Origin: a virus
Direction: 5' to 3' (one strand)
Length of the DNA: 34,723 nucleotides
IMG/VR virus record: IMGVR_UViG_3300048999_000096
Location: 1 to 34,723 of that record
A model generated the notes under the pieces. It did no database searches and was not told the DNA's origin. It saw nothing but the letters and a program-made list of their open reading frames with translations. The position numbers and the translations under genes were made by a program. Below are positions 31,838 to 33,962 of the stretch, piece after piece. Every line of letters begins with the position of its first letter. Within the stretch, counting starts at the first letter, position 1.

Positions 31838-32275
31838 ATGCCCAAGCTGCCCGCCCACCAGACGCCCGAAGCCAAGCTCGACTCGGCCGCCGGGCACATC
31901 GACGTCGCCCTCACCCGCGACCAGAAGCGCGGCGCCTTCGAGAAGCCCGGCTACGTCATGTACGCCATCGTCGCGCTCACCTCCACCTCGTACACCGGCC
32001 ACGCGGACGGCGAGGACAAGGCCCCGCACGTCAAGTTCCGCATCACCGAGTGCGAGGTGGCCGCCAGCGACGAGGAGGCCGTCACCCTCGCCGACGCGAA
32101 GCGCGCCATGTGGAGGCGCCGCCAGATGGAGGGGACGTTCGACGAGGTTGGCCCCGGTCCGACGAAGCCGGACGACGTCCTCGCGGCCGGGCTCGCCGGG
32201 CACCCCACCGAAGACGAGTACCGCGAGCACCAGCGCGCGAAGGAAGACCGCCGCCGCGGCGAGTACGTGAGGTGA
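31838..32275 (+). CDS. hypothetical early protein
   Basis: A 145-residue protein with GGAAAGG upstream of its ATG. The N-terminal part is beta-rich (GYVMYAIVALTSTSYTGHAD, PHVKFRITECEVAA). The C-terminal part is charged and helical (EHQRAKEDRRRGEYVR). I do not recognise a family. It is the first gene after the double terminator and overlaps or abuts the replication-protein leader. Confidence 0.7.
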   Translation: MPKLPAHQTPEAKLDSAAGHIDVALTRDQKRGAFEKPGYVMYAIVALTSTSYTGHADGEDKAPHVKFRITECEVAASDEEAVTLADAKRAMWRRRQMEGTFDEVGPGPTKPDDVLAAGLAGHPTEDEYREHQRAKEDRRRGEYVR

Positions 32276-32361
32276 CCCGCACCGCCCAGGGCCAGCACGG
32301 CCGGCACCCCGGGCGGATCTTGCCGGAACGATCCCGCACCACACCTGAGAGAGACACCGAG

Positions 32362-33198
32362 TTGAGCATCGACGAGCAGGCCCCCGCCAGCGGGAGCGTC
32401 CCGAACGCCTTCGGGAACGCCCTCGCCTGGAAATGGGTGCCCAGCATGCCGTCCGCGTTGAAGCGCGCGCACGTGCACACGCTGCTCTACGCGCTCCGCT
32501 CGATGGCCAGCGCCTCCGGGGAACTCCGCTTCGCCGACCGCAAGCCGATGACCATCAAGGCCATCTCGCGGGCCGCCGGATGCGACGAGAGGGACGCCCG
32601 TGACCGCCTCGATGCCGCCATCAAGGCGGGGGTCGTCCGGGTCGTCGGGGAGCGCCGACGAGGCCGCTCAGCCCTGTACGTGATCATGCCGACCCCGTTC
32701 CCGGATTGGGCCGCTGCGGTCGCGTATCTGGAGTTCGTGAAGGAGGAGCGGGAGGCGGCTCGGCAGAAGCGGGAGGTCGAGCGGAAGGCCGCTCCGTGGA
32801 CTGAGGAGAACGGGGGGCGGTCCCCCGAACTGGAAGACGGGGAGAACGGGGGACCGCCCCCCGAACTTCCGGGCCCTGAACAGAAGTCAGAACGGGGGAC
32901 CGCCCCCCGAATGAGTTCAGGGGACCGCCCCCTGAACGGTTCAGGGGACCGCCCCCCGTACACCCCAGGGGGTTACCCATGGGGTTCCCATGACGGGGCT
33001 GAGGTCGGTTTCCAACCTCAGGTAGTTGGGGCTTCCGGCCCTCAAGATCATCCCCCCCAGGAAGACACCACCAGCGGCGAACTCGCCCCCGGCTGGATCC
33101 CCTGCGAGCGCTGCCACGACCCGATGCTCCCCCGCTTCGGCCGCCGCACCCACGCCCACTGCCCACCCGTCACCGACCGAGAGAGGCACACCGCATGA
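32362..33198 (+). CDS. putative replication initiator, winged-helix type
   Basis: A 278-residue protein if it starts at TTG 32362 after GAGAGAGA. A GTG at 32272 would give 308 residues and a GTGA overlap, but the extra stretch is Arg-rich with codons unusual here. Residues about 20-115 look like a DNA-binding helical/winged-helix domain (GNALAWKWVPSMPSALKRAH, MTIKAISRAAGCDERDARDR, AGVVRVVGERRRG). Then comes a charged helix and a Pro/Gly-rich region coded by iteron-like repeats. The C-terminus has a zinc-knuckle-like CERCHDPMLPRFGRRTHAHC. Placement and internal repeats resemble phage initiators such as lambda O, by analogy only. Confidence 0.65.
   Translation: MSIDEQAPASGSVPNAFGNALAWKWVPSMPSALKRAHVHTLLYALRSMASASGELRFADRKPMTIKAISRAAGCDERDARDRLDAAIKAGVVRVVGERRRGRSALYVIMPTPFPDWAAAVAYLEFVKEEREAARQKREVERKAAPWTEENGGRSPELEDGENGGPPPELPGPEQKSERGTAPRMSSGDRPLNGSGDRPPYTPGGYPWGSHDGAEVGFQPQVVGASGPQDHPPQEDTTSGELAPGWIPCERCHDPMLPRFGRRTHAHCPPVTDRERHTA
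32811..32958. repeat. iteron-like 17-mers, candidate replication origin
   Basis: Five copies: 32811-32827 (CGGGGGGCGGTCCCCCG), 32847-32863 and 32893-32909 (CGGGGGACCGCCCCCCG, exact reverse complement of the first), 32918-32934 and 32942-32958 (CAGGGG variants). Centres are 36, 46, 25 and 24 bases apart. Each is itself partly palindromic. They are translated in different frames (GGPPPE, RGTAPR, SGDRPL), so the DNA, not the peptide, is conserved. They lie inside the putative initiator gene. Confidence 0.65.
33001..33019. other. hairpin beside the iteron array
   Basis: GAGGTCGG-TTT-CCAACCTC is an 8-pair stem with one mismatch and a TTT loop, about 40 bases after the last 17-mer and inside the same gene. 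It might be part of an origin or simply coding sequence. Confidence 0.35.
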
Positions 33199-33962
33199 CC
33201 GCGCCGTACTACGAAGACGACACCGTGCAGCTGTACCTCGGCGACATGCACGAGATCCTGCCCGAGCTGAACATCACCGCTGACCTGATCGTCGCCGACC
33301 CGCCCTACGGCGAGACGTCCCTCGCGTGGGACCGGTGGCCGAAGGGCTGGCCCGAACTCGCACGCGACGCCGCCAGCTCGATGTGGTGCTTCGGCTCGAT
33401 GCGCATGTTCCTCGACCGCGGGCCGGAGTTCACAGACTGGAAGCTCAGCCAGGACGTTGTATGGCGCAAGAACGCCGGATCGGGCTTCGCCACCGACCGC
33501 TTCAAGCGCATCCACGAACACGCTCTGCACTGGTACCGAGGGAACTGGCGAGACGTCCACCACGACGCTCAGCGCGAGACAGCGCCACCGACCAACTCGG
33601 ATCGTGAGGTCCGGCTCAACTCAACCGTCCGCCAGCACAGGGGTGACCAGTACCACCACGGGGTCATCAAGCCTGGCGCCTGGGTGGACGACGGAACTCG
33701 CCTCGTGCCCAGCGTCATCGACGCGAAGAACATGCGCGGGCGAGCGCTCCATCCGACAGAGAAGTCAATCGGCATCCTCACTCCGCTGATTCGCTACGCC
33801 TGCCCCGAAGGCGGCCTCGTCGTTGACCCATTCGCCGGGTCCGGCAGCACCTTGGACGCCGCCCGCCAGACCGGCCGCCGGGCCATCGGCATCGAAGCCC
33901 GCGAGGACTACTGCGAAGCCGCCGCCCGACGCCTCTCCGCGCTCACCCTGCCCACCGCCTGA
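33195..33962 (+). CDS. N6-adenine or N4-cytosine DNA methyltransferase
   Basis: A 255-residue amino-methyltransferase of the beta-type order: catalytic motif DPPY at residues 35-38 near the N-terminus and the SAM-binding DPFAGSGSTLDAA at 211-223 near the C-terminus. RALHPTEKSIGILTPLIRYA before motif I is typical. DPPY is common in adenine methyltransferases, so N6-A is slightly favoured, but N4-C is not excluded. The middle is the target-recognition region. No cognate restriction enzyme is visible. It overlaps the replication gene by four bases. Confidence 0.9.
   Translation: MTAPYYEDDTVQLYLGDMHEILPELNITADLIVADPPYGETSLAWDRWPKGWPELARDAASSMWCFGSMRMFLDRGPEFTDWKLSQDVVWRKNAGSGFATDRFKRIHEHALHWYRGNWRDVHHDAQRETAPPTNSDREVRLNSTVRQHRGDQYHHGVIKPGAWVDDGTRLVPSVIDAKNMRGRALHPTEKSIGILTPLIRYACPEGGLVVDPFAGSGSTLDAARQTGRRAIGIEAREDYCEAAARRLSALTLPTA

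Follow-up and report, generated by a model that had tools for sequence, protein, structure and literature searches.

A palindromic repeat array inside an initiator-like gene of Streptomyces phages as a putative origin of replication

In bacteriophage lambda, the initiator gene O has the origin of replication at its centre, where several iterons are followed by an AT-rich segment (PMC7466680). The pSK41-type Rep proteins of staphylococcal plasmids, which belong to the RepA_N group, likewise have their origin in the central part of rep; their N-terminal winged helix binds semi-palindromic iterons, and the middle of the protein, encoded by the origin itself, is a linker (PMC5703833, PMC7145576). 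In the Streptomyces theta plasmids pFP11 and pWTY27, Rep binds iterons composed of direct and inverted repeats (PMC3583192), and for the RepA phages of mycobacteria, Miko and Rachaly, the authors suggest that the origin possibly lies within repA (PMC7157519). Here we describe a phage gene with an internal repeat array that, by analogy, may work as these two systems do, although it cannot be shown to belong to the lambda O or the RepA_N family.

The window (the whole stretch of DNA that was analysed) is a virus record 34,723 bases long, with a GC content of about 70%, and among named phages it is closest to the Streptomyces phage OnionKnight. On its plus strand it carries an initiator-like open reading frame (32362–33198, TTG start, 278 amino acids, protein P0001), the end of which overlaps the ATG of the next gene. 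The OnionKnight homologue, gp46, shares 76% amino acid identity with P0001 and 82% DNA identity over the gene; among 49 homologues whose start codons were read, 27 begin with TTG and 13 with GTG, and nine are truncated or have a misplaced start.

A sequence-only reading of this DNA had reported five copies of a 17-mer within the gene, and this is borne out: CGGGGGACCGCCCCCCG occurs exactly at 32847 and 32893 on the plus strand and at 32811 on the minus strand, with CAGGGG variants at 32918 (two mismatches) and 32942 (one mismatch). Allowing up to three mismatches, the window holds nine matches against 2.25 expected, and none of 100 shuffles reached nine or more. The length of the unit had to be revised, since comparison of homologues shows that what is conserved is a 23-bp hyphenated palindrome with arms of 8 bp and a core of 7 bp (consensus GTTCGGGG-N7-CCCCGAAC; in the window's class GTTCGGGG-GACCGCC-CCCCGAAC). 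Its five copies, located by repeat matches, span 32808–32961: the first (32808–32830) is inverted on the minus strand, and the others lie on the plus strand at 32844–32866, 32890–32912, 32915–32937 and 32939–32961, the fourth, GTTCAGGG-GACCGCC-CCCTGAAC, having perfect arms. As had been claimed from the sequence, the copies fall in all three codon phases (2, 2, 0, 1, 1) and encode different peptides (ENGGRSPEL, ENGGPPPEL, ERGTAPRMS, SSGDRPLNG and GSGDRPPYT). Recoding the gene with synonymous phage codons gave at most four approximate copies and never five in 5000 trials, and shuffling synonymous codons within the gene reached five copies in 1 of 2000, which excludes chance as the source of the five-copy array. 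Palindromic GC-rich units are found in many genomes, and in DNA as GC-rich as the window one might think of a mobile palindromic unit or of low-complexity sequence arisen by chance; we give this the lowest probability of all explanations considered, a negligible one, as the 23-bp units are confined to the initiator-like gene in both the window and OnionKnight, their geometry is kept in divergent homologues and chance is excluded by the shuffles and recoding. A mobile palindromic unit, offered as an alternative in the sequence-only reading and judged here as an element of the REP or MITE type, is contradicted by this confinement to one gene, with no dispersed copies at unrelated sites in the window or OnionKnight.

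P0001 is predicted to consist of an N-terminal winged helix-turn-helix (wHTH), a long helix, a disordered linker and a C-terminal domain with a CxxC...C motif. The AlphaFold2 model has helices at residues 65–72, 76–89 and 116–142 (the long helix), disorder at 149–238 and an ordered C-terminus. Within it, the predicted wHTH core comprises residues 65–108 (32554–32685, plus strand), mostly with high pLDDT and with fold matches, and residues 76–89 are the predicted recognition helix. The repeats encode residues 149–200, in a stretch with a pLDDT under 50. The zinc-ribbon-like CxxC...C domain at residues 248–278 (33103–33198, plus strand), delimited by alignment and modelled with a pLDDT of about 85, is, by inference, a candidate protein-interaction domain. 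Searches of Pfam and NCBIfam gave no initiator match for the P0001 family, and a PDB sequence search found no relative; a weak match to the O-like phrog_391 (E 0.0044) was obtained for one of 18 members. The fold matches include TubR and, weakly, a phage O protein and replisome-organiser proteins, but the wHTH fold is common and these matches are therefore not specific.

Compared with lambda O, the locus shares an iteron array inside the coding sequence of the initiator and, as a prediction, host-dependent replication. It differs in that P0001 has no significant sequence homology to lambda O, in its five GC-rich 23-bp palindromes (copy 1 being inverted in the window's class), in its CxxC...C C-terminal domain and in having a methyltransferase gene, rather than a P-like gene, next door. 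The likeness to pSK41 Rep lies in an array that is central in the gene and encodes a predicted disordered linker. The wHTH of P0001 aligns to the folds 4pql, 4pt7 and 5kbj, which we take to be staphylococcal Rep initiator N-domains, with Z of 7.2–8.0, a range level with that of unrelated wHTH folds; a RepA_N Pfam search with 18 members gave no match, and the C-terminal domain of P0001 is unlike the DnaD-like helical domain of pSK41 Rep. Whereas pFP11 and pWTY27 have their iterons in adjacent non-coding sequence, those described here are inside the gene. Miko and Rachaly are similar in having an actinophage initiator, but no repeats were identified there and those prophages are extrachromosomal (PMC7157519).

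The array is a regular companion of the gene. About 58 non-redundant homologues with arrays, each of four to seven copies, were found in phages and Streptomyces prophages. When 2.9 million viral contigs were scanned blindly at the DNA level with two tandem GGGGACCGCCCC units as the query, seven contigs matched, and six of the seven have a homologue of the initiator-like gene at the array. One match of the first array scan (L006) was rejected as it is not a homologue of the initiator-like gene. Protein searches found homologues in viral contigs and in nine Streptomyces genomes of one collection; in a second genome set, two overlapping samples of 393 and 395 genomes included 20 and 14 with a homologue. 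Every intact homologue compared has the array; set aside from this count were L048, a truncated fragment ending within the array region, L085, a degenerate homologue with an internal stop and without a detectable array, and the distant L086, described below. Plasmid records contained no relative of gene or array, the phage collection held no satellite or other phage carrying the array alone, and we found no description of the array in Streptomyces phages in the open-access literature. One Streptomyces genome (L068) has a gene apparently identical to the homologue of phage Chymera, so that a Chymera-like prophage seems to occur there.

Conservation at the array acts on the DNA. In a codon alignment of 38 homologues, with codon identity given the same amino acid compared with expectation, the ratio is 1.9–2.0 over copies 2–5, 1.7 in the spacer after the array and 1.5 at a second palindrome, whereas the wHTH and the region before the linker reach 1.2. 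The test proposed in the sequence-only reading, whether synonymous sites are more conserved at the repeats than nearby, thus has a positive outcome. Synonymous conservation is raised at the gene start and in part of the C-terminal end too, and the array is thus the broadest but not the sole conserved stretch. In the first 12 codons (32362–32397 in the window) synonymous codons are unusually conserved, and these perhaps serve the translation start or a further regulatory site.

The spacing of the copies is conserved too. Measured from start to start, the last three intervals of most genes are 46, 25 and 24 bp; deep branches have 36 bp in place of 46, and the final two intervals of 25 and 24 bp are kept in nearly all homologues. 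In the window's class, copy 1 is inverted and its interval is 36 bp; elsewhere it is direct, with an interval of 25 bp. The recurring intervals of 24–25, 35–37 and 46 bp differ in steps of about one DNA turn (10–11 bp), although we use this helical phasing as a pattern only, because scored formally over the distinct intervals it is modest (R about 0.59). The sequence-only reading had set the GC-rich repeats apart from typical AT-flanked iterons; the repeats are indeed GC-rich, but the 70 bp 3' of the last copy are locally AT-richer, with a mean AT content across 47 homologues of 0.36–0.46 there, 0.20–0.36 within the array and about 0.25 beyond the flank. This flank (32959–33029, plus strand), into which the raised synonymous conservation extends, is a candidate unwinding element. 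Within it lies the conserved second palindrome, CTGAGGTC-GGTTTCC-AACCTCAG (32999–33021), which begins 60 bp downstream of where the last iteron begins; CTGAGGTC-N7-AACCTCAG keeps an offset of 59–60 bp from the start of the last copy in most homologues, and is intact or partly degraded in most of them and degraded in several.

The repeats vary between homologues while copies within one gene largely agree, and the changes in the arms are mostly symmetric: GTTCGGGT...ACCCGAAC, GTTCGGGC...GCCCGAAC, GTTGGGGT...ACCCCAAC, GTTCGTGC...GCACGAAC and GAAAGGGG...CCCCTTCC. Such concerted symmetric change would be expected if a factor acting in trans read the half-sites. When the residues not encoded by the repeats are ranked by their association with base 8, residue 75, located where the predicted recognition helix begins, leads by a wide margin. 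In the window this is Asp75 (codon 32584–32586, plus strand), identified by homologue comparison as co-varying with iteron base pair 8:16. A rule linking the two, derived from the first 38 genes, fits 55 of 56 genes: Asp75 goes with G:C (31 genes) or G:A (two), Arg75 with C:G (11), and Ser or Asn75 with T:A (five) or C:A (six), the sole exception being L069, with Ser and C:G. Seventeen further genes, deep-branching or newly fetched, all fit save L069; the bases of these deep and later genes were read by eye. Asp commonly contacts C in protein-DNA complexes, Asn contacts A and Arg contacts G. When column 75 is left out and a tree is made from the rest of the N-terminal domain, residue class and base pair each require ten changes. 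Independent contrasts, only eight in number for the main association, agree for Asp and G8 in eight of eight cases (p = 0.0078); they agree for Ser/Asn in five of six and for Arg in three of three, the last being too few for significance by itself.

In a DNA-only scan, the Arg-type repeat GTTCGGGCCACNNNGGCCCGAAC was found in four contigs, all with Arg75 homologues, including two new ones (L087 and L088). A scan for the T8:A16 palindrome matched homologues with Ser or Asn75, save L098, in which an Asp75 protein accompanies mixed but mostly G8 copies; single T8:A16 copies outside homologues are probably due to chance. The A8:T16 iteron class gave three matches, none of them in homologues. A link between a residue and core base 12 follows a single clade, and we left it out of the evidence. 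In three related cases (L064, L071 and L079), Gln77 in place of Lys or Arg77 coincides with a change of C18 to A in the right arm (GCAC), and residue 77 with base 18 is a possible second specificity position.

The co-variation argues, indirectly, that the encoded protein reads the repeats, and this bears on two other explanations of the array. As RNA, the GC-rich palindromes could form mRNA hairpins for pausing, attenuation or translational control, and their stems are strong, with compensated arms in some copies such as copy 4. Yet the copies change together and with a residue encoded more than 220 bp away, arm mismatches show no clear G:T excess (64 G:T versus 48 A:C), the intervals step by about 10–11 bp, the pattern of sites that share a face of the double helix, and no Rfam model came near its gathering threshold, the only hits being chance microRNA models far below it; we consider an RNA-level element very improbable, and a transcription pause is not needed, being possible as a side effect. 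Binding alone is no proof of origin function, as an autoregulator would give the same co-variation: the protein, with a wHTH as in many regulators and a gene within an operon, could bind the repeats within its gene as an operator or roadblock and so repress the operon to which it belongs, with replication starting elsewhere. The co-variation speaks for binding and not for its purpose. We nevertheless hold autoregulation to be unlikely, though the least so of the rivals, because more than 440 bp separate the start codon from the array downstream of it, a position far from a promoter, because five regularly spaced sites with an AT-richer flank and a second palindrome are origin-like, and because these phages are otherwise without a recognisable initiator, DnaB or polymerase.

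The gene neighbourhood includes Rad52-like, RusA-like and methyltransferase genes. The early genes tested against Pfam showed no helicase and no polymerase, and neither DnaB_C nor DNA_pol_A was found in any of 22 array-bearing phage records, several of them perhaps incomplete, with control genomes positive; a Prim-Pol scored above the cut-off in one record. Directly downstream of the initiator-like gene lies a methyltransferase and no lambda P-like loader. This slot (33195–33962) is variable, with an N6/N4-type methyltransferase in the window, a methyltransferase of another kind in OnionKnight and yet another gene product in L005, and it is a cargo-like position beside the putative origin. Upstream, in the gap at 32275–32362 of the window, many homologues have an inverted repeat rich in GC, CCGCCCGGGGC...GCCCCGGGCGG, after which comes a conserved stretch, CGGATCTTGCCGGAACGGTTCCGCA; this is possibly a terminator or control element. 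The switch in GC skew that had been proposed as a sign of the origin was sought in the window and OnionKnight: there is none at the array, cumulative skew merely declining along the early operon, and the origin draws no support from it; we count skew as uninformative, because in such phages it may only follow coding direction. That the array is a partition site, a centromere bound by a wHTH adaptor, is also very unlikely: TubR is among the fold matches and centromeres can be iteron arrays, but no ParA or TubZ is annotated in OnionKnight, which, with a tyrosine integrase and an excise gene, is an integrating phage.

The distant initiator-like gene in L086 (1249–2106) matches the family profile only over positions 98–262. 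It has a different wHTH and a different array, of unrelated CCGGACAGCGTCCATGG units at intervals of 25, 45, 23 and 24, close to those of the family, whereas its 3' part has a similar tail with a CTGAG...CTCAG motif and a CxxC...C end, followed by a gene that by eye reads as WhiB-like. This one case suggests that DNA-binding domain and iterons may be swapped as one module with the geometry kept.

We conclude that the five 23-bp palindromes are very probably replication-origin iterons, bound by an initiator whose own gene contains them. The proposal that this gene contains its own origin, as lambda O does, is the best-supported reading, given the arrays in intact homologues, the synonymous conservation and the co-variation of wHTH and repeats. 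Against it stand the weak homology to known initiators, the lack of a skew switch and the lack of a P-like loader. Each palindrome would probably be bound by a dimer of the N-terminal wHTH, and residue 75, where the recognition helix begins, would read base pair 8:16. The repeats would encode a disordered linker, in which any peptide that the DNA sequence imposes can be accepted. Several dimers bound at fixed spacing may then assemble into a nucleoprotein complex and open the AT-richer segment next to them at 32959–33029, and the C-terminal domain would bring in host replication proteins, a helicase among them; we infer this recruitment because neither a replicative helicase nor a polymerase is recognisable in the phages.

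The locus offers a concrete predicted origin and initiator for temperate Streptomyces phages in which these genes are labelled hypothetical. With initiator and origin in one gene and repeated joint changes of residue and base pair, it is a natural experiment in how replicon specificity evolves without loss of function, testable by a few point mutants, and such compact, self-contained replicons might be possible Streptomyces vectors. Tentatively, and somewhat short of an even chance in our estimate, the family may represent unannotated, widespread initiators of Streptomyces phages, whose residue-base code (Asp75 with G:C, Ser or Asn75 with T:A or C:A, Arg75 with C:G) would set origin specificity, so that joint switches of the domain and all iterons of a gene would sort co-infecting phages, prophages and satellites into separate groups of replication compatibility.
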